Part shown: positions 4,150 to 17,299 of the stretch, piece by piece
How the letters are laid out: each line of letters opens with the position of its first letter
Numbering within the stretch: the first letter of the stretch is position 1
Virus record (IMG/VR): IMGVR_UViG_3300010883_014317
Span: 1 to 25,304 of that record
Source of the DNA: a virus
DNA: 25,304 bases
Direction: 5' to 3' (one strand)
Notes under the pieces: generated by a model
Told to the model about the DNA's origin: nothing
The model's input: only the letters and a program-made list of their open reading frames with translations
Database searches by the model: none
Position numbers and translations under genes: made by a program

Positions 4150-4177
4150 AGTATAACAAAAAAAGGTGTTTTGTAAC
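4150..4177 (-). promoter_or_regulatory. Candidate sigma70-type promoter for the structural operon
   Basis: On the minus strand GTTACA (4177-4172, 4 of 6 to TTGACA) is 16 bp from TATACT (4155-4150, 5 of 6 to TATAAT). The -35 falls inside the terminator stem. It would give a leader of about 60 nt before the strong AAGGAGG of the 4083 gene. Such a promoter makes sense because the upstream operon ends at the terminator here. Two degenerate hexamers are weak evidence. Confidence 0.3.
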
Positions 4178-4206
4178 AGACTATAGCCCTATTACAAAAC
4201 ACCTTT
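4158..4206 (-). terminator. Strong rho-independent terminator ending the glycan cassette
   Basis: A perfect 15-bp inverted repeat (4162-4176 and 4192-4206, arm AAAGGTGTTTTGTAA) encloses a 15-nt loop. On the minus strand it is followed by seven T residues (4164-4158). It begins 22 nt after the stop of the SPASM radical SAM gene. On the plus strand the stem is followed by TTTACTTTTT, so it may also stop antisense transcription, but no plus-strand gene ends here. It separates the glycan cassette from the structural genes. Confidence 0.85.
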
Positions 4207-4227: not shown

Positions 4228-5358
4228 TTAAGTAAAATTCACATGCACAGGATCTTCGCCTATGGGCAACGGATCGCTTGAATTGATTTCCTTGTTGGTG
4301 TTTTCAATAATCTCAGTAAACTGACAACGCTCACACTCTTGCGGGTTGAATTGGTCGAAGTCATCATGCTTATGCTTAGAGTCCCACATCTGCTTGAAAG
4401 ACTGCTCCTTTAGCGACCCAACTAATCCATGCAGATTATACGCGTAAACACAGCATCTATATACATTTAAGTCGCCGCCGATATAGGTTGTAAAGTGCTG
4501 ATATGAGCAAAATTCAAAATCTGGAGTACCTTTTTCAAGCTCGCCGTGCTTTTCCGACACTCTATTGATTACTGAAAATTTACTATCGCTGAAATCTTCA
4601 ACCGCCCTTACTGCGATATAGCCCATATCGTGCTTGCAATCCTCAAAAGGATCGGCATTATCTGGATTAAACATTAAACCCAATCTCACATTGTCGAATC
4701 CAATTTCCTTATAGAGCTTTACGGCATCGTGAATTTGAGTCCAATTTCTCGGAGTCACTACAAATCCCGCTCCAATTACTGGACGCTCACCCTGATCCTT
4801 ACACTCTTCCACAAGACTACGAACTCCCGAAAGCATCCTATCCCAAGACTTAGTACCAACACCCCTCTCCTCCGAGTAGTGATCAGCATTGGCGGCATCT
4901 ATAGACACCCTCATCCATGTCATATTGCGAATAACTTCCCTCTGATCCACCCTATGAAGCATATTCCCATTAGTTATTAGTGCCGTGTCAAATCCTAAAT
5001 CTTGCGCGTACTTAGCTATCTCCACGAAATCGGGATGCACGGTAGGCTCCCCGCCTCCAGTGAACTGAATAGCCTTTACATCCATTTTCTTGCAATCGTC
5101 TAGTATCTCAAACACCTTCTCTTTAGGGATCATCCTTCTTGGATTACGCGCCTTTCTTGACTGCCCCTCTTCTATTTGGAATAGCTGATTAGAGGTATAT
5201 CCAGACATCCTATATGCACAGAATCCGCAGTCGTGATTGCAGAAATCAGATATAATAATTTCCACATGCACCGGATACGGCTGTTTCCCAGAGCGAAGGG
5301 CCTCCATCCTGTCGGTGTGGTGGACGGGCTTGCTCGTTGAGTACACACTTAGAGGCAT
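4228..5358 (-). CDS. Radical SAM/SPASM domain enzyme
   Basis: This is a 376-aa protein. The classical radical SAM cluster motif CX3CX2C is at residues 40-47 (C40, C44, C47; CNHDCGFC). It is followed by a GGGEP segment (FTGGGEPTVHPDF) that contacts S-adenosylmethionine. The C-terminal region (about 284-346) has five Cys (one, a CC pair, then CERC) in the spacing of a SPASM or twitch domain that binds extra iron-sulfur clusters. Such enzymes make 5'-deoxyadenosyl radicals and modify peptides, proteins or sugars; the substrate cannot be read here. The ATG at 5358 was preferred over GTG 5364 because GGGGA sits at good distance. It overlaps the upstream gene by 10 nt and is the last gene before the terminator. 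Confidence 0.88.
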   Translation of the reverse strand: MPLSVYSTSKPVHHTDRMEALRSGKQPYPVHVEIIISDFCNHDCGFCAYRMSGYTSNQLFQIEEGQSRKARNPRRMIPKEKVFEILDDCKKMDVKAIQFTGGGEPTVHPDFVEIAKYAQDLGFDTALITNGNMLHRVDQREVIRNMTWMRVSIDAANADHYSEERGVGTKSWDRMLSGVRSLVEECKDQGERPVIGAGFVVTPRNWTQIHDAVKLYKEIGFDNVRLGLMFNPDNADPFEDCKHDMGYIAVRAVEDFSDSKFSVINRVSEKHGELEKGTPDFEFCSYQHFTTYIGGDLNVYRCCVYAYNLHGLVGSLKEQSFKQMWDSKHKHDDFDQFNPQECERCQFTEIIENTNKEINSSDPLPIGEDPVHVNFT

Positions 5359-5840
5359 TGGCACATCCCCGCGAATAGCTTGTCGAGTTGTCGCACAACA
5401 TCATTCCGAAACTGGTTTTGTAGGTCTATCGCTCGTTGTGTGTCTTTAAAGTCCTCAAGCGTAGACTTATAAGAGTCAGTGGTCTCTGTGGTAGCCCCTA
5501 TGTTGACCATTTCTTTTTTTAATCCTTGGACATGGGTCTGGAGTTGCCAGTAGGTGCTGTGGATAACAACAAGCCGACTAATACAGTCCCCAATAGTCTC
5601 GGGGACAGATTGGTCTTCCGACTCGTGGTCCTTGTGGTCGTGGTATCGTATGCGCCACTTTTGCTGTGGATTCACAAGGCCAGCCGTAGCGTCCATCATT
5701 AGGCGAGTAATCTCTTCTCTTAGGTCGCTGGCATCCCCTTCTAGTGCCTCAACGGCGTCTTTCTTGTCTTTGATTTTGAAGTGGTGCAACTTTAGGTCTA
5801 CAATTGCCAGTTCGTCAACCATATCGCCAAATGTCCTCAC
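5349..5840 (-). CDS. DUF4254-like helical protein of a glycan cluster, unknown function
   Basis: This is a 163-aa protein starting at GTG 5840, whose G is also the last base of the upstream TAG; AGGGGG lies just before it. A longer open frame reaches 5960 but lies inside the radical SAM gene and has no ribosome-binding site. The sequence is mostly helical and shows an internal repeat: TFGDMVDELAIVDLKLHHF (about 3-21) and TIGDCISRLVVIHSTYWQL (about 81-99). The 'DxLxIxxlKxxH' pattern resembles, from memory, DUF4254-type proteins encoded beside glycosyltransferases; this was not checked by search. The strict overlaps with both radical SAM genes suggest the three are produced together. Confidence 0.55.
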   Translation of the reverse strand: MRTFGDMVDELAIVDLKLHHFKIKDKKDAVEALEGDASDLREEITRLMMDATAGLVNPQQKWRIRYHDHKDHESEDQSVPETIGDCISRLVVIHSTYWQLQTHVQGLKKEMVNIGATTETTDSYKSTLEDFKDTQRAIDLQNQFRNDVVRQLDKLFAGMCQCL

Positions 5841-7741
5841 TATACCCCCTCTATGTGCCGATAGGTGTGCTTCATAGGACTTCGGGCAACAAGCTTGCCC
5901 AACCCCTGCGGTGTGGTGCCAAACAGTTCTAACTGCGAAGTGAAGAACTCTTTTTGCCAATCCTCATAAGCAAATTTCAACTTATAAGGCGATGACCCCA
6001 ATTTCGGGATCTCAGCAAACCCCGCCTCTTCTAGTCCCACAAAATCATAAGAGAACTCCCCCGTATCTACTTCATCTAATCGTGAGAGATAACCCTTTTT
6101 GAGATGGCAATAGTCTTGCAAATCTAAGAGATAATCAACTTGCTCTTTTCCAAGGTGGGATAGGTATGTTCGTGCTAGCCTGTAGACAAAGTCATTGAGA
6201 AGGTGGGCGTTGTAAAACATAAGACTGCCTTGAGCATTATATAGTAGATTATTACCAATTGTCCCATTTTCAATACCCTCTTTGGACACTTGGTTACTAA
6301 ATTCATCTTCCGCGCCACTAAAAAACTCGTCATAAATTTCCACAATCTCACTTGGTGCATCCTTATCCAATATTGACTGATGTAAGTAAAGAAGGAAGTC
6401 GGAATACTTCTCACCCAAAGCCTTCATCATCTGGCTTAGCTCAAAGAAAATGCGCTCATTGTAAAATAATGCCACTGTCAACCCAAAGCCTCTACACCAA
6501 GTGTAATCATCGTAAGTCATATCATTATGACTAACTACAATCTCTTCAGTCTCAGCTATACAATGCTCATCACCATAAAATGAATACACCCCAAAAGACC
6601 GTTGTAGTATTCGCGTTTTGTACTCGATGCCGTATTTTTCCTGCTCGGCTGTTGTACCTAGCTGACTGCCATTCAGTAAATTAAGTTGGTGCATACGGAT
6701 CTGATCAAAGCCTATGTCCACCAACTCACAAATTCCTTCGGAGTGCTTTTCCTTGGTGTCTCCAGGCAATCCCAAGATCAACTCCGAGTAAGTATTCGCC
6801 TTGCCACTCTGTAGAGTGTTCGACATCCCAACCATCTCGTCGTGCGATATGTTTTTACGAGCAATCTTAGACAATACGTCAGCATCTAATGACTGTACCG
6901 ATGCGGCAATGCGAAGCGCACCCCCCATATTGGCAGAAACCTCCATTACTCTAACTTTATTGTTTTTACCCGTAGAGGTGTTTATGTATTGCGGGAAGCC
7001 ATATTCGGCTTGTATCTCCCGCACGGCCTCGCTAAACACAACATCCTCCTTGAACATACCGAAATTTGCATCAGCAAAGAAAAGCGTCTTTCCTTTATAT
7101 CGCTGAGCAATGTATGTGAGTTCATCAATTAATCGCTGTGTCTCATACTTATGAACCTTACTACGCGACTGCTCCCCGTCCACGCAAAAAGTACAGGAAA
7201 AGGGACAGCCCCTATTCGACTCCATGATGGGGGTGAGCTTGGGATCAGCTAAAAACTCATCCAGCATACCATTTAGGTAGGGGGAGGGGGTTTCGTCCAT
7301 ACTCATCACGCGATTATGTCCGAATACTCCCGGCATCTTGCCTACGTCACCGCCCGCACTAACAAACTGATTGACTAATTCTGCGAAAGCACACTCACCC
7401 TCGCCCTCTATATAGAAGTCATAAGGACGCTCCGACAACCACACCTCACGGATATCCATCTCTAATGGGAACTCAGGACCACCCCCGACCATCAAAATTT
7501 CTGGGTGGGCTTTCTTTATTAGTCGCGCAATCTCTACAGAGAGTGTGGTATTCCACATGTAGTTAGAAAAGCCCATAACATCAGGGGGCTGTTCCATAGC
7601 TTTTTCTAAACTTACCACGCTCTTAAATATTTGCACTTCAGCCCCCAAGTGCTTCGCCGCATAACTACCAATACAGGCTATAGCATATGGAACCACCTCA
7701 GATCCACCATCATGCGTTAGATCGCATAGATATATTTTCAT
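5840..7741 (-). CDS. B12-binding-type radical SAM enzyme
   Basis: This is a 633-aa protein. The start is ATG 7741 (ATGA overlap with the upstream stop, GGGAG 5 nt before); an in-frame GTG/ATG further upstream would be inside the neighbour. Residues 1-125 form a Rossmann-like cobalamin-binding domain (PPDVMGFSNYMWNTTLSVEI, MVGGGPEFP, and the hinge FYIEGEGECAF). No DxHxxG motif is seen, so cobalamin would bind without a protein histidine ligand. The radical SAM motif CX3CX2C is at C179, C183 and C186 (RGCPFSCTFC), followed by a TIM-barrel part (SELILGLPGDT). A long C-terminal domain (about 400-633) is helical and unassigned. Family members do radical methylation, ring closure or C-C chemistry. 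The substrate is unknown; context points to a sugar or a small decorating group. Confidence 0.88.
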   Translation of the reverse strand: MKIYLCDLTHDGGSEVVPYAIACIGSYAAKHLGAEVQIFKSVVSLEKAMEQPPDVMGFSNYMWNTTLSVEIARLIKKAHPEILMVGGGPEFPLEMDIREVWLSERPYDFYIEGEGECAFAELVNQFVSAGGDVGKMPGVFGHNRVMSMDETPSPYLNGMLDEFLADPKLTPIMESNRGCPFSCTFCVDGEQSRSKVHKYETQRLIDELTYIAQRYKGKTLFFADANFGMFKEDVVFSEAVREIQAEYGFPQYINTSTGKNNKVRVMEVSANMGGALRIAASVQSLDADVLSKIARKNISHDEMVGMSNTLQSGKANTYSELILGLPGDTKEKHSEGICELVDIGFDQIRMHQLNLLNGSQLGTTAEQEKYGIEYKTRILQRSFGVYSFYGDEHCIAETEEIVVSHNDMTYDDYTWCRGFGLTVALFYNERIFFELSQMMKALGEKYSDFLLYLHQSILDKDAPSEIVEIYDEFFSGAEDEFSNQVSKEGIENGTIGNNLLYNAQGSLMFYNAHLLNDFVYRLARTYLSHLGKEQVDYLLDLQDYCHLKKGYLSRLDEVDTGEFSYDFVGLEEAGFAEIPKLGSSPYKLKFAYEDWQKEFFTSQLELFGTTPQGLGKLVARSPMKHTYRHIEGV

Positions 7742-8436
7742 GTGTGCTCCCACCCCTTCGGAGACGGATGATGGTACCTTATCCCATCATTAAAACCATA
7801 AGCTGTCGGAGAAAAAACGTGCTTCTTTGTTCCCAAAACAGAATCCCCCAAACATTGCTCAAAGCACCAACGATTGGTTACTTCTACACTACTTAATCTA
7901 CTGACAATATCAGCTTTGGCTATAAATAACTGAGGCATAAAGTCCCCATTAGAATGATCTTGAAATCTACCTTCACCCTTATGATTAGGATTAAGCATGT
8001 CCTCTTCCGTCCAATGGGAGGCGTGGAAATTCTGCCCCATAGCCCTTGATACTGCTATATCGCTATCCCCCATACGGTCAATTATCCTACTTATACCATC
8101 AAGATGCACGAACTCAGTATCGCCTGTAATTCCAACAGCATAGGCAATATTATTATTTTGAGCAATCCCCTTAAAACCACAAGAAAAGTTACGAGCCATT
8201 GATCTTGCGCCTACATCAAGTCGCTCCGCTTTTGCATCTTGATTTTCCCTCACATCTAAATTAGGGAAACGAGTATACACCCCCTTGGGATGCCGCCGCA
8301 GTCTCTCTTCAATGAGGGGGTAAGGGTCTACGCCAGATTGAACTAGCTCTATGTGCGAAAACGCACTTCCCCACCTATCAAGATTCTTGACCATACAATC
8401 CACCTCATCATACATACTCACAGCGAGAGCGATCAT
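7738..8436 (-). CDS. Glycosyltransferase-like protein, paralogue A
   Basis: This is a 232-aa protein starting immediately after the TAA of the nucleotidyltransferase gene and ending in an ATGA overlap with the radical SAM gene. Recognisable blocks are SMYDEV (7-12), ELVQSGVDP, ARNFSCGF, VGITGDTEF (DxE where GT-A enzymes have DxD), SRAMGQNFHASH, GRFQDHSNGDFMPQLFIA, and VTNRWCFEQCLGD. The same blocks recur in order in the protein at 10969-11691, so the two are paralogues. The GT-A-like layout (N-terminal strand with SMYDE, acidic motif near residue 105, C-terminal WCxEQ) suggests nucleotide-sugar binding, but it matches no family I can name. Because it follows a nucleotidyltransferase, it may use the activated compound made by that enzyme. 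Confidence 0.55.
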   Translation of the reverse strand: MIALAVSMYDEVDCMVKNLDRWGSAFSHIELVQSGVDPYPLIEERLRRHPKGVYTRFPNLDVRENQDAKAERLDVGARSMARNFSCGFKGIAQNNNIAYAVGITGDTEFVHLDGISRIIDRMGDSDIAVSRAMGQNFHASHWTEEDMLNPNHKGEGRFQDHSNGDFMPQLFIAKADIVSRLSSVEVTNRWCFEQCLGDSVLGTKKHVFSPTAYGFNDGIRYHHPSPKGWEHT

Positions 8437-9180
8437 TTAGTCATACAAATGGATGTGGGTCTGTTCTATGAGTGAGCAGTTTGCGATAGTGCTCTCTAAC
8501 TCGACAGGCGTTCCCATAGGAAAAACACGCGGCACAGGGTAAGCCAACACCAGATCTCCTCGTTGTATCATTACATTATATACAGAGCCTAAATGATACT
8601 CACCCACCACAGGTTCACTGACTAACTCTTCTAAATCATCCATTAGCCTCCCGCCACTGCAAAAGTAACGAACTCCTGCTATCGCATCGCTTGTAATGGG
8701 AACTTTTTCAATCACAGACTCAACCCTCATATCCGTATCAAAATAAGCATACGACCAATTAGATTGCCTTCCTCTGAATACGGTCATTGATCCATTAGCC
8801 TCATTTCTCCTTGCGAACGAAAGAAAATGCTCTGGTACCCAATCTAATAATTGATCGGGATCGGCAATGACCACCTCATCGTCTGCTCCTATATCATCCT
8901 TCGCCGCCAACACAGTACAAGCGGCACCACTCGTCAGATGAGGCAAAGGAACCCCTATAACATCATCGGGCAAAAAAGTTGACGTTTTAAACCAATGCTG
9001 TACCCACTCCTCATGCTCACCACGATACACTACAACTGTCTTGTCCGCTATGGGAAGATTACCTATAGCCCGATCTATCATAGCCCTACCCATAACATCA
9101 ATAAAGGGCTTAGGCTCCTTATATCCCTCCGCACTAAATCGACTACCCTCTCCCGCAATAGGCAAAATGAGAGTTAGCAT
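8437..9180 (-). CDS. Nucleotidyltransferase (sugar- or alcohol-phosphate NTP transferase)
   Basis: This is a 247-aa protein. The N-terminal signature LPIAGEGSRF followed by EPKPFIDV (residues 6-28) is the GxGxR...KP nucleotide-binding loop of the NTP_transferase family (catalytic K24), and ADPDQLLDW carries the metal-binding acidic pair. These enzymes couple a sugar-1-phosphate, or a phospho-alcohol such as phosphocholine, to NTP to give an activated NDP/CDP donor. The length fits the short LicC/MurU/IspD-like type without a left-handed beta-helix. ATG 9180 was chosen with AAGGAGG 10 nt upstream; a GTG at 9189 leaves no room for a ribosome-binding site. The kinase two genes upstream could supply its phosphorylated substrate. 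Confidence 0.85.
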   Translation of the reverse strand: MLTLILPIAGEGSRFSAEGYKEPKPFIDVMGRAMIDRAIGNLPIADKTVVVYRGEHEEWVQHWFKTSTFLPDDVIGVPLPHLTSGAACTVLAAKDDIGADDEVVIADPDQLLDWVPEHFLSFARRNEANGSMTVFRGRQSNWSYAYFDTDMRVESVIEKVPITSDAIAGVRYFCSGGRLMDDLEELVSEPVVGEYHLGSVYNVMIQRGDLVLAYPVPRVFPMGTPVELESTIANCSLIEQTHIHLYD

Positions 9181-9185
9181 CCTCC

Positions 9186-10118
9186 TCACTCCTCCTTCGT
9201 GTGGCTATCAGGGTCGGGCGACGGCATGTCAAATAAGTCTTCTATTGCATGATATGAAGTGTGCAACATAACCTGCTTCGCGCCAAAATCCGCAGTAGAC
9301 GCATCGCTCACATTCTGAAAGGGGTCTTCCATTTTCTTCCGAATGACATACAAGCCCCTATCGTCGGCATTCCCAAAGTAGCTGTGCGGGTCATCTTCGC
9401 TCGGCGTTCCTGTAAATAACATAGTGTCATATTGCGGAAAACTTTTCTCAATAATCCTATGTAACTCTTCACCCGTATTGAGAAATTGCGTGTCGTGAAA
9501 AACCACCACCCCGCCCTCTACGATGTAAGGCTCAATCATAAGGAACTCGTACAGGGCCAATCGTTTCCATGAGTCAATTAATGCAAAATCTACCTGTTTT
9601 ACTTTATCCAAAAGATTCTGCAACCCACCCGTGTCACTACGCTCTTTGATGCACTCCACGTAGGGATGATTCATAATCTCAGGAGCAATAAGCTTGTCTT
9701 CGGGGTCGAAGCTGTAAACCTTGCCCTTCCCCCAAGTTTCACACGCTTTTGCTAGAAACAATGTGGAATACCCGTAAAAAGTGCCCGTTTCAATTATAAC
9801 ATCGGGATGCACATTAAGGGCTAAGGCAAATAGGAGAATCCCCGTATGAGGATGAACACCCCCCGCTGAGTACGGGATCTCATGCTTGAAATCCAAATCA
9901 AACGAATGAAACAACCCCTCGGCGATATGATGCACAAAAGGCCCAAAGTCCTGTCCGTCAGGATAAGACACCCCAATAGGCTTAGAGGTCATCATCCCCC
10001 GATCATCACAATCGGGTTGCTTTGTCCCATCGGGCGGCATCTGCTCCCCATCTATAGAGTGGGGTAGTGGGTAAGGCCCCTCTGTAAATGTCCTTTTTTT
10101 GTAGCCTATTTTTTTCAC
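9186..10118 (-). CDS. Class I SAM-dependent methyltransferase (Methyltransf_24-like)
   Basis: This is a 310-aa protein. The Rossmann SAM-binding segment is VIIETGTFYGYSTLFLAKA (107-125, motif I ExGxxxGxS), followed by KVYSFDPED (133-141, acidic residue for the ribose), VDFALIDSW (176-184) and EGGVVVFHDT (201-210). This 'IDG/IDS ... vvFHDt' layout is that of the O-methyltransferase family common in polysaccharide clusters (CmcI/Methyltransf_24). The start is GTG 10118, with AAGGA 8 nt upstream, overlapping the kinase stop by 4 nt. The N-terminal 60 residues and the C-terminal 60 have no recognised motif. It probably methylates a sugar or another cassette product, in the cytoplasm. Confidence 0.85.
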   Translation of the reverse strand: MKKIGYKKRTFTEGPYPLPHSIDGEQMPPDGTKQPDCDDRGMMTSKPIGVSYPDGQDFGPFVHHIAEGLFHSFDLDFKHEIPYSAGGVHPHTGILLFALALNVHPDVIIETGTFYGYSTLFLAKACETWGKGKVYSFDPEDKLIAPEIMNHPYVECIKERSDTGGLQNLLDKVKQVDFALIDSWKRLALYEFLMIEPYIVEGGVVVFHDTQFLNTGEELHRIIEKSFPQYDTMLFTGTPSEDDPHSYFGNADDRGLYVIRKKMEDPFQNVSDASTADFGAKQVMLHTSYHAIEDLFDMPSPDPDSHTKEE

Positions 10119-10972
10119 ATCAATAGTCCTTTGGGTCTGAGGGGGCTTCCTTTAAGATATTGTTTTAGTAGCGTTACAGCCATGCTGAGTAATTGAAATT
10201 GCTGAATAGATGTGTGGCAATAGGGTATGATTCGGGATAGTGTCGTTGCCAGATATAAGACTAATCTATGCTTACAGCACTCCACGTTGTCCAAGACCAC
10301 CTCGGCAAAACGCAACTGCTTCCGCAAGGGAGGCCGTATGGCAATAGCTGAGCGCACCTCTTTCCAGTGGCACAAGGTGCTTTGCATCAGCTTAGCCACA
10401 TCCCAATAGAAATTGTCGAACTCTTGGCAAAGTGGATCAATTAACGTAATTCTGGTTCCATCGTAAAAGATGTTGTCCATAGCCATATCGCCGTGCGAGA
10501 ATGTGGGCTTTTGTGTGGATGTAAGGTCTACCAATTCAACTAGCTTAGCGTACTCATCTGCCTTGGGCCAATTGTAATCGCCTACGTATTCACAGGCTCG
10601 GTGCAATTTGTGCTTGATAAATTCATTCTCACTATCTTGCTGACCGTCGAGTGGAGCATTCGCAGAAAATTGGTTGATTACACAAGACAGCTTATTCGCC
10701 ACGATCACCACATCTTCATGGCCCATGTCTGGTAAAATGTCCTCCAAGCGCGGAACATCAATGCGCCCCATCTCGTAGCACAACGCACCCCGCTCGTTTA
10801 CATAGCTACGGATAATATGCGGCACATCAAATAAATTGCTGAACTCACGCGCCATATATCGAATACGTAAGATCTCGTTCTCTACCTTTTGATTCTGCTC
10901 GGGGCCAGCCGCTACTTTTACTACGTAGTTTTTATGCCATATGATGGACCCACCCGAAAACCCTTGGGTCAC
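10115..10972 (-). CDS. APH/choline-kinase-like small-molecule kinase
   Basis: This is a 285-aa protein with the aminoglycoside-phosphotransferase/choline-kinase fold motifs: N-lobe Lys in YVVKVAAG (K19), a Glu in VENEILRIR, Brenner motif SHGDMAMDN (H160, D162, N167) and the metal-binding LIDPL (D179, DFG equivalent). Kinases of this type in surface-polysaccharide clusters phosphorylate choline, ethanolamine-like alcohols or sugars (LicA-like). The start GTG 10972 makes a 4-nt GTGA overlap with the upstream stop. The nearby nucleotidyltransferase supports a kinase-then-nucleotidyltransferase activation route. Antibiotic resistance is unlikely given the context. Confidence 0.82.
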   Translation of the reverse strand: MTQGFSGGSIIWHKNYVVKVAAGPEQNQKVENEILRIRYMAREFSNLFDVPHIIRSYVNERGALCYEMGRIDVPRLEDILPDMGHEDVVIVANKLSCVINQFSANAPLDGQQDSENEFIKHKLHRACEYVGDYNWPKADEYAKLVELVDLTSTQKPTFSHGDMAMDNIFYDGTRITLIDPLCQEFDNFYWDVAKLMQSTLCHWKEVRSAIAIRPPLRKQLRFAEVVLDNVECCKHRLVLYLATTLSRIIPYCHTSIQQFQLLSMAVTLLKQYLKGSPLRPKGLLM

Positions 10973-11691
10973 TGCGAGTACATCTCATCGCTTGCATAGT
11001 TGTATACAACTCCATCGGCAAACCCAAATGCCTCCCACGAAAAAACATAAGGCAATCCTTTATGTTTATTCATTACATCAGCCAAACACTGCTCCGAGCA
11101 CCACTTATTCGTCACTTGAATGCCACTAAACGCATCTACTAAATCCTTGCCGACAATAAACATCTGCGGCAGAAAATCATCATTAGATGAATCTTGTAGC
11201 CTACCTCCCCCCTCGCCTCCAGACTCAAAGTGATCCAATGTAAGATCCGCACGATGGAAAGACTGACCCAATGCCCTTGAGCAACCTACACTACATCCTT
11301 TTTCAATCATGGCATCTATAATTGTATCTATCCCCCACAAATTCCAAAGCAATGTACCACCCGTAATACAAACCAAGTAATCTACATTTATTGCTTCGCC
11401 GACATTCGCCTTTTTGTAGCCCCCAAACAGATGAGAATAATTTCTGCATACCGCCTTTGAGGTTAGCTCCCAACCCGATCCATTTTCCCCTAAATACTTA
11501 AGCGTCTTATACTTGCATACAGCTTCCGCAGAAGTTAATAATCTACCCACCTCATCTGCCTTGCGATCTCCAGATTGAACAATTCCAACATACTTACAAT
11601 CATTTACTACGTTCGTAAGGGTGTTGCATACTGTGCTTACCTCGTCGTACATTGAAACCAACAAGCCGATGTTTTTTTTGAACTCAAACAT
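10969..11691 (-). CDS. Glycosyltransferase-like protein, paralogue B
   Basis: This is a 240-aa protein. ATG 11691 was chosen over TTG 11697 because AAGGA lies 8 nt upstream. It repeats the blocks of the protein at 7738-8436 in order: SMYDEV, GIVQSGD, CRNYSHLFGG, VCITGGTL, SRALGQSFHRAD, GRLQDSSNDDFLPQMFIVG, VTNKWCSEQCLADV, and AFGFADGVVYN. At the place where paralogue A has ITGDTEF this protein has ITGGTLL, so the acidic pair is missing. B may therefore bind a donor differently or be non-catalytic. It lies directly upstream of the kinase gene with a 4-nt overlap. Confidence 0.55.
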   Translation of the reverse strand: MFEFKKNIGLLVSMYDEVSTVCNTLTNVVNDCKYVGIVQSGDRKADEVGRLLTSAEAVCKYKTLKYLGENGSGWELTSKAVCRNYSHLFGGYKKANVGEAINVDYLVCITGGTLLWNLWGIDTIIDAMIEKGCSVGCSRALGQSFHRADLTLDHFESGGEGGGRLQDSSNDDFLPQMFIVGKDLVDAFSGIQVTNKWCSEQCLADVMNKHKGLPYVFSWEAFGFADGVVYNYASDEMYSQ

Positions 11692-11693
11692 TA

Positions 11694-11906
11694 TCAACTT
11701 CCTTCAATTGTATACGGATAGCGGCTCCACACCCTTAGATCAGACTTTGTGTATCTTTTATTGAACTCATCCTCGCTCACTTTCAATTCTTGCCCCGTAT
11801 CTATAAACAAAAGCACTCTCTGGTTTCCCAACCTGTCCCGGTCCTTAACGAATACAGAAAACCCATCATCACGATAGTAAAGACGCACAAGCCTTTTTCG
11901 GCTCAT
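11694..11906 (-). CDS. Small basic protein, unknown
   Basis: This is a 70-aa protein, MSRKRLVRLYYRDDGFSVFV at the N-terminus, rich in Arg/Lys and beta-prone. Its ATG makes a 4-nt overlap with the holin stop and its TGA is 2 nt before the next start, so it is a real link in the operon. There is no membrane segment, no Cys and no known motif. It sits between the holin and paralogue B. Confidence 0.6.
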   Translation of the reverse strand: MSRKRLVRLYYRDDGFSVFVKDRDRLGNQRVLLFIDTGQELKVSEDEFNKRYTKSDLRVWSRYPYTIEGS

Positions 11907-12349
11907 CCATTAATAGCCTTGATCAATGAACTGTCTTCAGCCTTCCCTTTTCCACGAAACTTTTCCGCGCTCCTACCGACAACCCAGACGCTCACAACGC
12001 CTCCCCATGCAATCCAGAATTGATCCGGTAGTTCTGGTATTTCACTGAACATATTCACTATGTGATGTATAGTTATCAGAGCCATTCCCCAATAAACCAC
12101 GGTCGGCCTTGCGCGCTTGGTAAAGTTATCCCCCTGTGCCATCTCAGCAGAGATAACCTCTTGCGTCATGGTCATTCGCTGTCTAAACGTCTGCTCTACT
12201 TGATTTTCTTTTTCCTGTAGAATCCTCTGCATCTCAAGGTCAAACTCTTTTTTAGCATTGGGATCTCCAATAAACTTTTCAGCTACACTTTTTATTGTCC
12301 CAAGCGTGTCTCCAGTAAGCAAACCAGCAACACTCGACAGAATATTCAT
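11903..12349 (-). CDS. Holin, 3TM-type family
   Basis: This is a 148-aa protein. ATG 12349 (ATGA overlap with the upstream stop, GGGAG 8 nt before) was chosen; a longer open frame to 12427 lacks support. After an amphipathic N-terminal half with a charged helix (about 31-75), the block FTKRARPTVVYWGMALITI (76-94) and FWIAWGGVVSVWVVGRSAEK (111-130) gives two clear membrane spans. They carry the 'RP..vy.g......W....GR.aeK' pattern of the phage Holin_3TM family. Such proteins permeabilise the inner membrane to start lysis. It is unusual that it lies inside the glycan operon, more than 6 kb from the endolysin and under different transcription. Confidence 0.78.
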   Translation of the reverse strand: MNILSSVAGLLTGDTLGTIKSVAEKFIGDPNAKKEFDLEMQRILQEKENQVEQTFRQRMTMTQEVISAEMAQGDNFTKRARPTVVYWGMALITIHHIVNMFSEIPELPDQFWIAWGGVVSVWVVGRSAEKFRGKGKAEDSSLIKAING

Positions 12350-12978
12350 TTGAAAAACTCCCTTGCCTCTTCGTAGAAGTCCGTGCAAATCCCAACAAAA
12401 TGCGAATCGTCTTTCACCATCCTCCAATGAGCATGTAGATAAGACTCATCCCCTATCGCCCACTTTTTAACATCAGCCCCTAAGTGAAGCTCCGGTGACA
12501 CATAGTAATGAGGAACCTTCCCAGTAGAGTTGGACGATGGCATCTTGCTTATCATTAAATCATTTTTTTCTCTTTTATTCCACTCCCACCGATCAGACCA
12601 TATCCCACAATTCGTTGAGTAAGGGCTTACATCCTCCTCAAGATCACTGTATCTATCCATGACATTACCACCCCACGCCGCATAGCTCATCCTGCATGGG
12701 TACGGCATATTGAAAGCAAACCACCTATCTTCCCCCACTGTCGAGTTCATAATATTAGCTATTACTCGCTCGTTTCCATCAGACTTGATATTCAATGCAT
12801 ACATGCTATAATTTGGATACCTTAAGATCCAATCAAGCACTCCTACACTATTATCTCCTACGATGGGGTCGCGCGATAGGCGAGGCGCACCCTGAGAGTC
12901 TCGCACATCTATCTCCACTCCAAGACTACAATCAAGATTCTCGGTTATGGTCTGTGCGCCGTGAGCAAGTACGATCAC
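12346..12978 (-). CDS. GDPD-like phosphodiesterase with altered active-site histidine
   Basis: This is a 210-aa protein starting at GTG 12978. The N-terminus reads IVLAHGAQTITEN (H6, E13, N14), then VEIDVRDSQG (E22, D24) and LSRDPI (R36, D37). This is the glycerophosphodiester phosphodiesterase TIM-barrel pattern HRG...EN...E.DV...HD. The first His and the metal-binding Glu/Asp are present, but the second catalytic His of the HD pair is Arg. Later segments YALNIKSDGN and GIWSDRWEWN resemble the short GDPD-like proteins found in polysaccharide clusters. It could hydrolyse or transfer a phosphodiester (glycerol- or choline-phosphate), or have lost hydrolysis. No signal peptide is seen, so the protein is probably cytoplasmic. 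Confidence 0.65.
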   Translation of the reverse strand: MIVLAHGAQTITENLDCSLGVEIDVRDSQGAPRLSRDPIVGDNSVGVLDWILRYPNYSMYALNIKSDGNERVIANIMNSTVGEDRWFAFNMPYPCRMSYAAWGGNVMDRYSDLEEDVSPYSTNCGIWSDRWEWNKREKNDLMISKMPSSNSTGKVPHYYVSPELHLGADVKKWAIGDESYLHAHWRMVKDDSHFVGICTDFYEEAREFFK

Positions 12979-12984
12979 TGCAAC

Positions 12985-13176
12985 TTACTCAACATCCTTA
13001 TTTTTCACAGCAGTCAGCGCGTGTATTTGACCCGCTATATTACAGTATACTGGGTCGGCATTTGCGATCACATTGAGCCTCTCCTGTTGCTTGATTTTCA
13101 ATTCCTCTATGGCACCGTCTATGGTGAGCGCGCCAACTTCATCTACTTCATCTACTTCATTTACTTCATTACCCAT
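12985..13176 (-). CDS. Small acidic protein with Glu-Val repeats, unknown
   Basis: This is a 63-aa protein. ATG 13176 was chosen because GGAGGTG lies 6 nt upstream; the longer frame to 13266 lies inside the preceding gene. The N-terminus is four triplets ending in EV (NEVNEVDEVDEV), produced by four near-identical 9-bp units. A predicted helical body follows (DGAIEELKIKQQERLNVIAN) and a short tail. It is probably soluble and may oligomerise. It lies 6 nt before the GDPD-like gene. No family is recognised. Confidence 0.62.
   Translation of the reverse strand: MGNEVNEVDEVDEVGALTIDGAIEELKIKQQERLNVIANADPVYCNIAGQIHALTAVKNKDVE
13136..13171. repeat. Four tandem 9-bp units inside a coding region
   Basis: The plus strand reads ACTTCATCT, ACTTCATCT, ACTTCATTT, ACTTCATTA in direct succession. 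They encode the (N/D)EV triplets at the N-terminus of the 63-aa protein. Nine-base units keep the frame, so copy-number change would only lengthen or shorten the acidic N-terminus. Confidence 0.85.
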
Positions 13177-13189
13177 ATCAACACCTCCA

Positions 13190-14071
13190 TTAAAGATTAT
13201 TTTGCATGTCCCTTGACTCACCTTGAACAAGGTGGTACGAGATCGACCGTGGGCATAGGTACCCAACTACTCCAGAATCATAAATCTTGTCCATGTACGA
13301 AACATCGCCAGTAACACCTTCTTCGTTTACCTCATCCGACAATGGCCCAAACTCTTCCCATAGTTTTTTTCCTTGGAGCCATGTCACTCCATCTGGTCTT
13401 TTCTGTGAGCCTCTTGATGGATGGCGATAGTACAAGCCGCACATATCCCCCCGTATCCCTAACTCGTTATCATACCTATGTATCTGACTATTGGCATACG
13501 AATCGAATCTTATTGCATCAAAGTCATCGGGCGTATGACCCCACTGCTTCGTCTCATGCCTTGAACTCCGCGCAAGATCAGACTCGACTGTCCAACAGTG
13601 ATACACCCCATTTGGATGCTTCCGCTCACACTCAACTAACGCACGAAGCCAGTTATCGCTAAAAAACTGGTCACTCCCCATACGAGCTACATACTTCGTC
13701 TTTGCCTCAGAGTAGCCGAGATTCCAACAAGCGTATAGGTTTTCCAAAAACCAACCCGTATCAACTACTGGCGTAGGGCGTTCTGTTCCAAAGTCAACAG
13801 GCCAATCTGGTTGCTCAACTTTTTTATATCTTTTCTCAGTTGCACGATACGGGACATACTTTATATCATATCCCAATAACTCTTGCCCCTTCACCCACTC
13901 ATGTATTTTCTCGTGCCCATTGCCATCAGACTCATTGATCCAATTAACAATAACCCACTTGTGATCAAATCCAGCCCTGTCCCTCGCATTAGTCACGCAC
14001 CAATCCAATAGTTTTACATCGCGTGAAATTATAGTGTAGCAAGTAACGTCAGTGCGCGTATCAAATTTCAT
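13190..14071 (-). CDS. Glycosyltransferase, GT-A-like
   Basis: This is a 293-aa protein. It starts with TCYTIISRDVKLLDWCVTNA (10-29), a typical GT-A N-terminal strand-helix. It then has ENLYACWNLGYSEAKTKYVA (about 109-128) followed by RMGSDQFFSDNWL, where the acidic SDQ replaces the DxD that binds metal and the sugar nucleotide. The C-terminal half has GVYHCWTVESD and a late GDVSYMDKIY, compatible with acceptor binding. This architecture is that of family-2-like glycosyltransferases, without a transmembrane anchor. The start is ATG 14071, overlapping the methyltransferase stop by 4 nt. Donor and acceptor are unknown. Confidence 0.65.
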   Translation of the reverse strand: MKFDTRTDVTCYTIISRDVKLLDWCVTNARDRAGFDHKWVIVNWINESDGNGHEKIHEWVKGQELLGYDIKYVPYRATEKRYKKVEQPDWPVDFGTERPTPVVDTGWFLENLYACWNLGYSEAKTKYVARMGSDQFFSDNWLRALVECERKHPNGVYHCWTVESDLARSSRHETKQWGHTPDDFDAIRFDSYANSQIHRYDNELGIRGDMCGLYYRHPSRGSQKRPDGVTWLQGKKLWEEFGPLSDEVNEEGVTGDVSYMDKIYDSGVVGYLCPRSISYHLVQGESRDMQNNL

Positions 14072-14541
14072 AGGTCTACAACTTTTTCTTTAATTGTTGT
14101 TAGCTGATAGTGCGCGTTTTCTGTTTCTGGGTTTCTTTGATACTCAGTTTTGAACTCGCCGCTTATGCCATACATCGGGCCGCGCTCTATGATATATTCC
14201 CCATCCTTCTTTTCCCACATCTGGAATGACCACTCATCCCAATCTTTTTTCTTATGTGTGTAATCCTTGCCACAATTAGGCGATCCAAGCGCAGGGACTT
14301 CTACATACACTTTTACACCATGCTTACAGACACGCCACATCTCATCAACAATAAATATCAAATCCTCACCGTCAAAGTGCTCCAGTATGTGCTTTGCCAT
14401 TATCCCATCTATGCTACTATCGGCAAAAGGCAACCCCCTCCGCAGATCACGCACTATGTCAACGCCATCGAACTCCCAACGATCTATCCCTGTAAATCCT
14501 TGATTCTTATTTGGGCCACAACCCAAATCAAGCATAATCAT
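14068..14541 (-). CDS. Class I SAM-dependent methyltransferase (Methyltransf_11-like)
   Basis: This is a 157-aa protein. It starts directly at motif I, LDLGCGPNKNQGFTGID (4-20), followed by DIVRDLRRGLPFADSSIDGI (28-47) and the post-motif segment KHILEHF (50-56), then VDEMWRVCKHGVKVYVEVPA. These are textbook motifs of the small Methyltransf_11 group. The enzyme is short, ending after a PALGSPNCGKDY region, so it is a minimal form. Its ATG makes a 4-nt ATGA overlap with the glycosyltransferase upstream. It probably methylates a cassette sugar; protein or lipid acceptors are possible. Confidence 0.88.
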   Translation of the reverse strand: MIMLDLGCGPNKNQGFTGIDRWEFDGVDIVRDLRRGLPFADSSIDGIMAKHILEHFDGEDLIFIVDEMWRVCKHGVKVYVEVPALGSPNCGKDYTHKKKDWDEWSFQMWEKKDGEYIIERGPMYGISGEFKTEYQRNPETENAHYQLTTIKEKVVDL

Positions 14542-15440
14542 ACTTTGCCTTTATTCCTTTTTATCCGATCCACAAAAGACAACAACTGACCTGCGTAGTT
14601 GTCCCACGACAGATGATCGACTAAGTACCTCCTATTAAACAGTCTCCCCAGAGCCTTCTTAATAAGTATCTCTCTAAGCCCATCCGCATCACCACTCACA
14701 AACATATGATGATCATTATCCTCAGACTTGCCCAAGAAGTCGGGAACAAACCCAACGTCAGCCGCTATCACTGGAACTCCACAAGCCAACGCCTCAAGTA
14801 ATGCCATAGGACCACCCTCCCATAAGGAAGGGATTAGTAGATAGTCTATGGTGTGGTAGAATGACTGATATGAGTCATAGTCTTCGTTTTCATCAGTAAA
14901 AATATTATGCCCCTCGAAAGACGAGACATCCCAACCCTTACCCTTAAACAGCAGTGAGAAGTGATCTCTTAAATCGGAAGGCATCCCACTGCTCCAAACT
15001 TTTTGTAAAAATCCATCTCCCTTGCCCTCAAACCCCCCACGTTGCGCCACACCCAAGATCAAGGGACGGAGTCTAAAGTCCCTGACATCACCGGGGGGAC
15101 AAACAATCATTTGATCTTCATTGTACCACTTCTCTCTCAAGAATACTTGGTGGTATCTATTGCACATATGCACAATGCCATCAAGATCATCCCACCCACC
15201 CCTAAATGAGCTTATGTCATCACCATCAAGATGCGTGAACATCCCAATATGTGTAGCGTTATTTAGTCTCCGTCTTATTAGTGGGTTCCAACAATTCTGA
15301 ACATCTACATAATAGTAGGCATCTAAGTCTGTTGGTATTTCGTTGGTGTGCAGTGAGAACACTTCGCTACATGCCGCTATTTTCTTGGCAATGGAAGTGA
15401 GAATCCACCCACTATCTGGATGGACAATTCCTACTCTCAC
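14538..15440 (-). CDS. Glycosyltransferase family 4-like (GT-B fold)
   Basis: This protein is about 300 aa. The start chosen is GTG 15440, which makes a GTGA 4-nt overlap with the stop of the 38-aa membrane peptide; an in-frame TTG at 15452 would be the alternative. The C-terminal domain contains LIPSLWEGGPMALLEALACG followed by VPVIAADVGFVPDFL, the E-x7-E type donor-binding region of GT4 retaining glycosyltransferases. The N-terminal half (VGIVHPDSGWILTSIAKKIA and HIGMFTHLDGDD) is the acceptor Rossmann domain. The protein is short for GT4 (usually 350-400 aa), with a compressed N-domain. It acts in the cytoplasm on NDP-sugars. Confidence 0.85.
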   Translation of the reverse strand: MRVGIVHPDSGWILTSIAKKIAACSEVFSLHTNEIPTDLDAYYYVDVQNCWNPLIRRRLNNATHIGMFTHLDGDDISSFRGGWDDLDGIVHMCNRYHQVFLREKWYNEDQMIVCPPGDVRDFRLRPLILGVAQRGGFEGKGDGFLQKVWSSGMPSDLRDHFSLLFKGKGWDVSSFEGHNIFTDENEDYDSYQSFYHTIDYLLIPSLWEGGPMALLEALACGVPVIAADVGFVPDFLGKSEDNDHHMFVSGDADGLREILIKKALGRLFNRRYLVDHLSWDNYAGQLLSFVDRIKRNKGKV

Positions 15441-15553
15441 ACTGCAATCCAACTAAGAATCTTCAATGCAATACTCTGCGATGTGTAAAATACTATCCAA
15501 GCAACCACCGCCATTACATATATCGCCAAGAAACTCCCAATGGCCTTTGCCAT
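15437..15553 (-). CDS. 38-aa single-span membrane peptide
   Basis: An open frame from ATG 15553 to TGA 15437 encodes a 38-aa peptide. The N-terminal MAKAIG is followed by a continuous hydrophobic stretch (FLAIYVMAVVAWIVFYT, about 8-24), then SQSIALKILSWIAV. The ATG comes 1 nt after the TAA of the upstream glycosyltransferase, and the stop overlaps the next GTG start as GTGA. It exactly fills the only otherwise empty 100-nt gap in this stretch of the operon. The spacing is that of a real gene, and the sequence is a plain membrane helix. It could anchor the glycosyltransferases to the membrane or act as a small lysis/regulatory peptide. No Shine-Dalgarno better than GGAGAG at 13 nt is seen, so coupling to the upstream gene is likely. 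Confidence 0.62.
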   Translation of the reverse strand: MAKAIGSFLAIYVMAVVAWIVFYTSQSIALKILSWIAV

Positions 15554-15554
15554 C

Positions 15555-16391
15555 TTATTTTCTTTCTCTCCACTCTTTATAGCTACCATACCCCCTCATA
15601 GTCTCTGGATCAAACACCGGACTCAAGTCCACATCAGCACCCGTAGTATGTAAGCAATCTCCCAAGTACCACTCAGGCAACCACTCTCGCTCTACTTGGA
15701 CTAGTGCGAGATCTGCATCTTCCGTGACGAGCCTGTCTAACGCCCATCCGTCCTGTCCTTGGTCTCTATATGCAAAGTATTTTTTTGCTATCTCATCATC
15801 AGAGGCAAATCCAAGATGTATCAATTTCCCATCATCATCGGGAAACTTTGACGTTACCGTCTGCACTTCGTCATCATTATGGTAAAAGTGTGGGAACTGC
15901 TTTTGGTGCAATTTCCCTACGGGGCGATAATGCAATTGCCCTGTGTTTTTCCAAAAAACACCGTGCCAAAGGTCATTAAATGAATTGTCAGTTCGATAAT
16001 ATTTATCCGATCTCCACAAGTTCAGATTATGAAGATGCAACAAAACTATTCCCTGACTCTCGGTCTGCTCAAGTGTCTCTACAGCCCTATCCCTATCCTC
16101 CCAATGCCTCCCCAATATAGCGTCCGTATCGAACCAACAAATCCAATCGGGAGCCATTCGCATTGCCACGGAGAGCAATTCCTGCTTGTGGTATAGCTCT
16201 CGCTGAAACTCGTTGCGGGGGCTATATAGGGTCACGCAGCCAAAGTCCTCATAGAGAGGCGAAACAAGCTCACTTGAGCCATCGTCATAGACGACAATCT
16301 CATCGCATACCCTACGCATTGAGTACAGACACTGCGACAAAAAGCCATTGTCTACATTGTTATAGTTTTGCAAGAATCCTACTATTTTCAC
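15555..16391 (-). CDS. Glycosyltransferase family 2-like
   Basis: This is a 278-aa protein starting at GTG 16391 with AGGA 7 nt upstream. KIVGFLQNYNNVDNGFLSQC (2-21) and EIVVYDDGSSE (31-41) form the GT-A nucleotide-binding region, and WICWFDTDAIL (about 83-93) provides the DxD metal motif. A tail with KYYRTDN, HLGFASDDEIAKKYFAYRDQ and EWYLGD resembles glycan-cluster GT2-like proteins that recognise specific acceptors. There is no membrane anchor. It is preceded by a 131-nt gap with an inverted repeat and followed 1 nt later by the 38-aa peptide. Confidence 0.8.
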   Translation of the reverse strand: MKIVGFLQNYNNVDNGFLSQCLYSMRRVCDEIVVYDDGSSELVSPLYEDFGCVTLYSPRNEFQRELYHKQELLSVAMRMAPDWICWFDTDAILGRHWEDRDRAVETLEQTESQGIVLLHLHNLNLWRSDKYYRTDNSFNDLWHGVFWKNTGQLHYRPVGKLHQKQFPHFYHNDDEVQTVTSKFPDDDGKLIHLGFASDDEIAKKYFAYRDQGQDGWALDRLVTEDADLALVQVEREWLPEWYLGDCLHTTGADVDLSPVFDPETMRGYGSYKEWRERK

Positions 16392-16411
16392 CGTATATTC
16401 CTAGAAGTAAA

Positions 16412-16481
16412 GAAGGGGGGAAGAATGCCCCGAAGGAACAGGCAACTGCTCATACGATACGAAAGCTCTCAACCCCCCTTC
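16412..16481 (-). other. Intergenic inverted repeat, possible structured leader or processing site
   Basis: The 131-nt gap between two glycosyltransferase genes is the largest inside the cassette. It contains a perfect 9-bp G/C-rich inverted repeat (GAAGGGGGG 16412-16420, CCCCCCTTC 16473-16481) around 52 nt. Within it a smaller imperfect stem (GCTTTCGTA ... TATGAGC on the minus strand) can form. The minus-strand stem is followed by TTTACTTC rather than a proper T-run, so it is a poor terminator. It could adjust expression of the downstream glycosyltransferase or stabilise a processed end. No convincing ORF fills the gap. Confidence 0.4.
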
Positions 16482-16522
16482 ACAGAGTACGCCCAATCAG
16501 ATCGTCCTCTTATCTGATTTCC

Positions 16523-17299
16523 CTAAACAGGCGCACTCGATTCCTCTGCCTCAAGGTCTGGAAGCCAGACATGGCCCCCTGCCCCGTACTTATCTTTTAT
16601 GTACTCCATATCTTGCCGCTTCTTGTCTCTCTCTTCTGGATCTTTAAGGGTTCGCAACATCTGTCCTTCGTGTACCCTGCGCCTCACAAGGGGAACATTC
16701 AATGCCGCGAAATTATACCGCTCAGCCACCCTAAGTAAAAACTCGTAGTCCTGTGCATGTACCATGTCTTCATTGAATGCGCCACACTCATCTATTACAG
16801 ACCTACGGAACATTACAGTAGCCGCATTTACAAAACAATGCTGTTTCAGCGCATCGAAAAAATCAGATTGAGTGGGATACTGAGCGGCGGGCCATGTGTT
16901 GGCCGTAATGGGTATCCCCTCCTCATAAGAGCAATAACTGACGCTGTAATCCTTGCCTATCATAAACTTTAACTGTTGATCTGTTTTCTTCGTAGAGAAC
17001 AAATCATCAGACGGCAACCACTGAATAAATTCCCCCGTCGATTCCTCTAATCCCCTATTCAGCGCACCAGCCACCCCTTTATTCTCTTGATACACATACT
17101 TACAAGGCACTCCAAAGTCATCAGAATACCCCTCCATGACCTCTGCCACAGACCCCTCTTGCGAAGGCACGGACCCATCATCAATAATGACTATTTCACA
17201 AGGGTATGTCTGGTGCTTCGCGCTAAGCAATGCGGCTCTTAGATATTGCTCACTCTGATTAAATGTCGGTATTATTATACTGACTACTCTATCACTCAC
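16523..17299 (-). CDS. Glycosyltransferase family 2
   Basis: This is a 258-aa protein, the most canonical glycosyltransferase here. VSIIIPTFNQSEQYLRAAL (6-24) and EIVIIDDGSVPS (about 35-46) form the GT-A donor site. NKGVAGALNRGLEESTGEF (about 74-92) leads into WLPSDD (about 94-99, the DxD-like metal site). DYEFLLRVAERY (about 183-194) is the ED/catalytic-base region and RRRVHEGQML matches the usual C-terminal end of the domain. The start GTG 17299 overlaps the nuclease gene by 8 nt with GAGGGA upstream. It is a cytoplasmic enzyme adding a sugar from an NDP donor. It heads the glycan part of the operon. Confidence 0.92.
   Translation of the reverse strand: MSDRVVSIIIPTFNQSEQYLRAALLSAKHQTYPCEIVIIDDGSVPSQEGSVAEVMEGYSDDFGVPCKYVYQENKGVAGALNRGLEESTGEFIQWLPSDDLFSTKKTDQQLKFMIGKDYSVSYCSYEEGIPITANTWPAAQYPTQSDFFDALKQHCFVNAATVMFRRSVIDECGAFNEDMVHAQDYEFLLRVAERYNFAALNVPLVRRRVHEGQMLRTLKDPEERDKKRQDMEYIKDKYGAGGHVWLPDLEAEESSAPV

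Follow-up and report, generated by a model that had tools for sequence, protein, structure and literature searches.

A cobalamin-dependent and a twitch-type radical SAM enzyme at the end of a putative surface-glycan cassette of an uncultured bacterial virus

The present study concerns a 25,304-base sequence from an uncultured virus of bacteria (IMG/VR virus record IMGVR_UViG_3300010883_014317; the whole stretch is called the window hereafter), in which genes for two different radical S-adenosylmethionine (SAM) enzymes, one of them cobalamin-dependent (the B12 enzyme) and the other with a twitch-type domain (the twitch enzyme), flank a gene for a small DUF4254-family protein. We favor, with moderate confidence, the interpretation that this trio forms the end of a phage-borne cassette for surface-glycan modification, in which the two radical SAM enzymes represent an association also found in bacteria and the DUF4254 protein is an optional component. 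The trio is encoded on the minus strand, in the order B12 enzyme, DUF4254 protein, and twitch enzyme, and is followed by a hairpin:

5840-7741, minus strand: cobalamin-dependent radical SAM enzyme (633 amino acids, ATG at 7741)
5349-5840, minus strand: DUF4254-family helical protein (163 amino acids, GTG at 5840; PF14063)
4228-5358, minus strand: radical SAM enzyme with a twitch-type auxiliary-cluster domain (376 amino acids, ATG at 5358)
4162-4206, minus strand: intrinsic terminator-like hairpin with a T tract, directly 3' of the twitch enzyme gene and ahead of the tail genes

The B12 and DUF4254 genes overlap by 1 nt (TAGTG) and the DUF4254 and twitch genes by 10 nt; these overlaps, the gene positions, and the cluster cysteines, all described in an earlier note on this DNA, were confirmed. 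Alternative starts exist for the B12 enzyme (in-frame GTG at 7753, adding four residues) and for the DUF4254 protein (TTG at 5960, giving 203 residues). Upstream on the same strand, Pfam recognized glycosyltransferases, methyltransferases, an NTP_transferase protein, and an APH-like kinase. Because the hairpin (minimum free energy, -24.1 kcal/mol; z = -6.4) and then genes that sister phages also carry in their tail region lie downstream, the trio closes the cassette, which bears out the proposal of the note that these are its final genes.

Family and fold of the two radical SAM enzymes

The B12 enzyme is composed of a B12-binding domain (residues ~1-170), a radical SAM domain (~171-425), and a C-terminal domain (~430-633), and it matches the Pfam models Radical_SAM (8.8e-10) and B12-binding (PF02310, 4.4e-8). 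Its CxxxCxxC cluster motif, C179/C183/C186, is invariant in 33 aligned sequences, and direct reading of the translation verified the statement of the note that a DxHxxG motif is absent. The top NCBIfam match is KedN5 (NF033712, 5.4e-47), with 160 bits against a cut-off of 700 bits; by this score the enzyme is classed as related to the KedN5 subfamily, not as a member of it. Profile comparison with solved structures found TokK (7.1e-65) and CysS (2.7e-55) and no others by sequence. The fold of an AlphaFold2 model made from the 33 sequences (predicted local distance difference test score, 89.8) was matched by TokK (E 6.8e-38; template modeling (TM) score, 0.79) and CysS (TM 0.75), in alignments of about 680-700 columns that span the full length, including the C-terminal domain, whereas TsrM (TM 0.46), MiaB (TM 0.42), and OxsB were far behind. 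In addition, W63, a tryptophan invariant in 33/33 sequences, aligns with Trp76 of TokK and Trp75 of CysS, the lower-axial residue beneath the cobalt (PMC9692996, PMC12846815). The fold over the full length and the alignment of W63 therefore lead us to place the 633-residue protein, by sequence and model, among the cobalamin-dependent radical SAM enzymes of the TokK/CysS type. With TokK, CysS, and KedN5 it shares the three-domain architecture, the full-length fold, the cluster motif, and the lower-axial tryptophan, while it differs from them in being viral, in being ~25% identical, and in keeping the company of surface-carbohydrate rather than antibiotic genes. From this likeness we infer with high confidence that the enzyme is a cobalamin radical methylase, most likely a C-methylase.

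The twitch enzyme matches Radical_SAM (3.8e-20) and SPASM (PF13186, 3.7e-6; 27.6 bits against a cut-off of 21.5) in Pfam and has the cluster cysteines C40/C44/C47 (CxxxCxxC). The earlier note had called it a SPASM-type enzyme with five late cysteines. The five cysteines (C284, C302, C303, C342, and C345) are indeed present and the SPASM model is matched, but only C284, C302, C342, and C345 are conserved in the family, and the full seven-cysteine SPASM motif, which corresponds to two auxiliary clusters, does not occur; the enzyme thus has, by its cysteines, the twitch pattern and not full SPASM. Its best sequence matches among solved structures are BlsE and DesII, and its model (predicted TM score, 0.86) is matched about equally well by SuiB, DesII, and BlsE, so that the fold alone cannot separate a sugar from a peptide substrate. 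BlsE, a cytosylglucuronate decarboxylase, and DesII, a TDP-amino-sugar ammonia-lyase, are sugar-acting radical SAM enzymes that have an auxiliary cluster as the twitch enzyme does, but the similarity does not extend beyond the core (TM about 0.6, 13-18% identity). The two also differ with regard to a family-wide C-terminal tail, HxxF[ITV], which is found in the phage enzymes and in 14 of the 15 bacterial homologs checked (HVNFT here) and is without evidence in BlsE and DesII, and their function is not transferable. In the model, this tail (window 4228-4240) is ordered though without secondary structure.

One alternative is that the substrate is a peptide or protein, which the enzymes would mature by RiPP-like chemistry (on ribosomally synthesized and post-translationally modified peptides) or by modification of a virion protein; such activity is known for many radical SAM enzymes of the SPASM type. 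In favor of it, the top group of fold matches for the twitch enzyme includes the peptide enzymes SuiB and SkfB, and RiPP pathways frequently contain B12 radical SAM enzymes, with TIGR03975 and ApyD both appearing among the matches. This alternative nevertheless seems improbable, because the best family matches of the B12 enzyme are TokK, CysS, and KedN5, with RiPP models far weaker (5.4e-47 vs 4.6e-17), the twitch enzyme conserves four late cysteines rather than seven and is matched by BlsE and DesII as well as by SuiB, the cassette neighbors are sugar genes, and Pfam reported no recognition-element domain. Another alternative, that either enzyme modifies tRNA or rRNA in the manner of MiaB/RimO or TYW1, draws on weak matches to these families through the common radical SAM core. 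The earlier note had named grouping with a tRNA modification family as a finding that would speak against its idea, and neither enzyme groups there by family or fold matches. For the B12 model, the TM score with MiaB is far below that with TokK, no TRAM domain was found by Pfam, and the relatives of neither enzyme are located with tRNA genes, all of which makes an RNA substrate most improbable. Membership in the MiaB/RimO methylthiotransferases was rejected on the same grounds, that is, better family and fold matches elsewhere and the missing TRAM domain.

Association and gene company in bacteria and viruses

The association of the two enzymes was examined in a sample of 385 alphaproteobacterial genomes, with thresholds of E <= 1e-30 for the twitch enzyme and E < 1e-200 for the full-length B12 enzyme. 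The twitch family was found in 20 genomes, the B12 family in 17, and both in 7 against 0.9 expected (p = 5e-6); when five genomes that had been chosen because of the B12 enzyme were removed, both were found in 5 against 0.57 expected (p = 9e-5), and these p values are optimistic because the genomes are related to one another. The two genes are adjacent and co-directional in L220 (with a gap of 13 nt), L221, L101, and L207 (L numbers designate loci or contigs of homologs); in L210, L213, and a plasmid of Azospirillum oryzae KACC 14407, a distance of 2-4 kb separates them. The immediate radical SAM neighbor of the B12 gene on this plasmid matches the twitch family only weakly, and true members of the family lie ~3.6 kb and 22 kb from the B12 gene. 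Co-occurrence and adjacency in bacteria thus make the association real at the family level, which supports the linking of the two enzymes in the earlier note. That two genes adjoin is, however, no proof that their products act on one substrate, and we consider the chances that both enzymes serve one pathway to be even.

Full-length relatives of the B12 enzyme are found in Alphaproteobacteria, Chloroflexota, Planctomycetota, Omnitrophota, Verrucomicrobiota, and archaea. The Pfam tally of the genes near them is headed by Epimerase, GDP_Man_Dehyd, and RmlD, the counts being lower bounds, with wrong-frame open reading frames among the first gene calls in these GC-rich loci. At least one homolog of a sugar-pathway protein lies within ~10 kb in 23 of 39 B12 loci, whereas control stretches taken from these genomes had one in 2 of 19 cases (p = 4e-4; query donors were excluded, and L245 was dropped since it overlaps L102 on the same contig). 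In the tree, the window enzyme clusters with L087-L090 and L121 (support 99/98). In L088, which belongs to these closest relatives, the B12 gene is followed by matches to glucose-1-phosphate cytidylyltransferase (RfbF) and CDP-glucose 4,6-dehydratase, as well as by a gene of the DegT family that resembles RfbH; L089 and L090 contain SIS/HAD genes resembling GmhA/GmhB.

The gene company of the twitch enzyme likewise leans to sugar. Its phage relatives adjoin heptose genes, glycosyltransferases, methyltransferases, split transketolases, and epimerases, with glycan genes next to the enzyme in phages L169, L170, and L181, and related radical SAM enzymes of HTVC008M and SynMITS9220M01 stand beside glycan genes. 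Bacterial relatives are accompanied by DegT, transketolase, and sporadic-carbohydrate-cluster genes; for example, TIGR04323/TIGR04324 genes of such a cluster are located two genes from the twitch enzyme in L210. Sporadic carbohydrate clusters and related bacterial surface-glycan clusters resemble the phage cassette in holding relatives of the B12 and twitch enzymes, together with DegT, transketolase, and CDP-glucose genes, whereas the phage has no deoxysugar dehydratases, no TIGR04323 or TIGR04324 protein was detected among the window proteins by the NCBIfam scan, and the phage has DUF4254 in addition. The halves of a split transketolase adjoin the twitch genes of large viral contigs (L181:6803-8001, L183:10199-11321), an arrangement also seen in the bacterial loci L101 and L207.

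The glycan setting proposed in the earlier note is supported, given that bacterial homologs of both enzymes occur in surface-carbohydrate clusters, and we consider a sugar or glycan to be the probable substrate. A phage precedent is offered by the host-recognition regions of pelagimyophages and cyanophages, which, according to excerpts of one report (PMC7029224), contain lipopolysaccharide genes and have gained radical SAM cassettes. The likeness lies in the placement of radical SAM genes among lipopolysaccharide and glycosyltransferase genes; those phages belong to another group, however, and the excerpts do not describe a TokK/CysS-like B12 methylase linked directly to a twitch enzyme. The remark of the earlier note that radical SAM enzymes are rare in phages does not hold, since a single pattern scan of IMG/VR yielded 288 relatives for just the B12 enzyme.

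The DUF4254 protein and the integrity of the trio

The 163-residue protein scores above the gathering cut-off of PF14063, albeit marginally (E 6.4e-7, 29.8 bits against 27), which upholds its description as DUF4254-like. Comparison with solved structures gave nothing significant, and a literature search yielded no paper on the function of DUF4254. The earlier note had presented the trio as a unit coupled through this protein and had taken its presence here alone as a sign to the contrary. The co-occurrence check found the trio in no other genome searched, while sister phages and the distant virus L175 hold partial sets, so the trio as a unit is not borne out. The sister phages L008, L009, and L174 have a common backbone and a twitch enzyme 65-66% identical to that of the window, the gene of which directly follows a homolog of the gene at 7738-8436; the B12 and DUF4254 genes were not found in these loci. 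Between its twitch enzyme and tail genes, L008 has on the opposite strand a gene for a cytidylyltransferase-like protein (PF01467; L008:11102-11500), which is absent at the corresponding position of the window. In L175, a DUF4254 homolog (28% identical, 4e-9), which scores below the PF14063 cut-off (17 bits), overlaps the twitch gene by 4 nt, and B12 is lacking.

Apart from the L175 pair, whose contig also appears as L219, viral scans with DUF4254 queries retrieved a single chance match, to a tail protein (L007). PF14063 gave two hits in 32 genomes or records holding B12 homologs, both elsewhere on the contig than the B12 gene, and seven hits in the 385-genome sample, none in a genome with the B12 or twitch enzyme. 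Because it is apart from both enzymes in bacteria and together with the twitch enzyme in L175, the DUF4254 protein is better seen as a putative glycan-assembly partner, paired with the twitch enzyme by some phages, than as the link between the two enzymes; that it is a specific partner of the twitch enzyme seems doubtful. As a possible clue to its function, the bacterial DUF4254 gene L260:5553-6149 lies beside a GT9 heptosyltransferase gene (Pfam), and L258:210-644 is followed by an overlapping gene that is GT9-like by eye and has no Pfam match.

The partial sets also bear on the possibility that each gene joined the cassette independently, that the products act on different glycan residues, and that the genes are neighbors without joint chemistry. 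Such an origin would accord with the lack of B12 and DUF4254 in the three sister phages and of B12 in L175, as well as with phages L002 and L004, which have B12 homologs and no twitch homolog detected nearby. Moreover, the other full-length viral B12 copies (L002 with L003; L004 with L010) are placed elsewhere in the tree than the window enzyme, and these separate places therefore indicate at least three viral gains of the gene. On the other hand, the B12 and twitch families co-occur and directly adjoin in bacteria, and we hold independent acquisition to be possible and rather unlikely.

Several of the observations weigh against our interpretation of a glycan cassette with two associated enzymes. 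The best-characterized relatives of the B12 enzyme (TokK, CysS, and KedN5) use antibiotic precursors, not sugars, and the sugar genes of the window make up no complete deoxysugar pathway. SuiB and SkfB are prominent among the fold matches of the twitch enzyme, several bacterial relatives of which lie outside glycan clusters, alone among unrelated genes (L211, L212, L214-L218). To these are added the optimistic p values and the sister phages, which do without the B12 gene.

Proposed chemistry and other features of the window

If the B12 enzyme works as its TokK/CysS type suggests, one SAM would methylate cob(I)alamin, and a second SAM at the C179/C183/C186 cluster would give a 5'-deoxyadenosyl radical, which would abstract hydrogen from an unactivated carbon so that the substrate radical could take the methyl group from methylcobalamin. 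The twitch enzyme might carry out a second radical step on the sugar, such as epimerization, deoxygenation, or decarboxylation. The gene company suggests that the common substrate may be a nucleotide-activated or lipid-linked sugar, that the product may be a C-methylated or otherwise radically edited sugar, and that glycosyltransferases of the cassette might attach it to the host surface during infection. The altered surface would probably change receptors or exclude competing phages, and an infection-time change of surface glycans would be in line with the pelagimyophage host-recognition regions as excerpted from PMC7029224. The DUF4254 protein would be an optional helical partner, with a role in complex assembly or transfer more likely than in radical chemistry. 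Both enzymes were probably taken from bacterial carbohydrate clusters, the B12 gene having entered separately, between its upstream neighbor and the twitch gene. A bolder proposal, which we regard as unlikely on present evidence, is that the B12 methylase and the twitch enzyme constitute a two-step module for one sugar, common to bacterial surface-glycan clusters and phages, with a C-methylated or radically branched product that would be new to phage-altered host surfaces, and that in some phages DUF4254 serves for docking.

These findings connect a branch of the cobalamin-dependent radical methylases that has no assignment, and that occurs in many phyla of bacteria and in three or more lineages of viruses, with surface carbohydrates and with another radical enzyme, and so give a concrete lead for tests. 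If this is right, some phages rewrite the sugars bound by other phages using radical chemistry and the B12 of the host. The recurrent bacterial pairing offers cultivable test cases in Azospirillum oryzae, Thalassospira, and other Rhodospirillales.

The rest of the cassette, upstream of the trio, is as follows:

7738-8436, minus strand: protein without assignment (232 amino acids), paralog of 10969-11697 (36% identical)
8437-9189, minus strand: sugar nucleotidyltransferase-like protein (NTP_transferase)
9186-10118, minus strand: Methyltransf_24/CmcI-like methyltransferase
10115-10972, minus strand: APH-like kinase
10969-17299, minus strand: remainder of the glycan cassette, including 10969-11697, the paralog of 7738-8436
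13190-14071, minus strand: GT2-like, within the glycan cassette
14068-14541, minus strand: Methyltransf_11, within the glycan cassette
14538-15452, minus strand: GT4/GT1, within the glycan cassette
15555-16391, minus strand: protein without assignment, within the glycan cassette
16523-17299, minus strand: GT2, within the glycan cassette

The gene at 7738-8436 and the B12 gene share an ATGA overlap, and in L008 and L174 its homolog is directly upstream of the twitch enzyme. This protein and its paralog, which have no match in Pfam, PHROG, or NCBIfam, possibly represent a new glycosyltransferase-like family. A holin gene of the gene transfer agent type, with three transmembrane segments, is located inside the cassette (11903-12427), and a comparison of the major tail protein with those of named phages found no relative.

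Inteins are present in two viral proteins that are distantly related to the twitch enzyme, one of 295 residues in L175:6015-8036 (residues 49-343) and one of 341 residues in L182:6741-8864 (residues 47-387). An archaeal MoaA intein presumably occupies the same cluster position, for which literature searches gave no confirmation. Both viral inserts have Hint/intein matches in Pfam, end in VVHN|C, and lie at the same site, directly ahead of the third cluster cysteine; since they split the CxxxCxxC motif, activity of these enzymes would require splicing.

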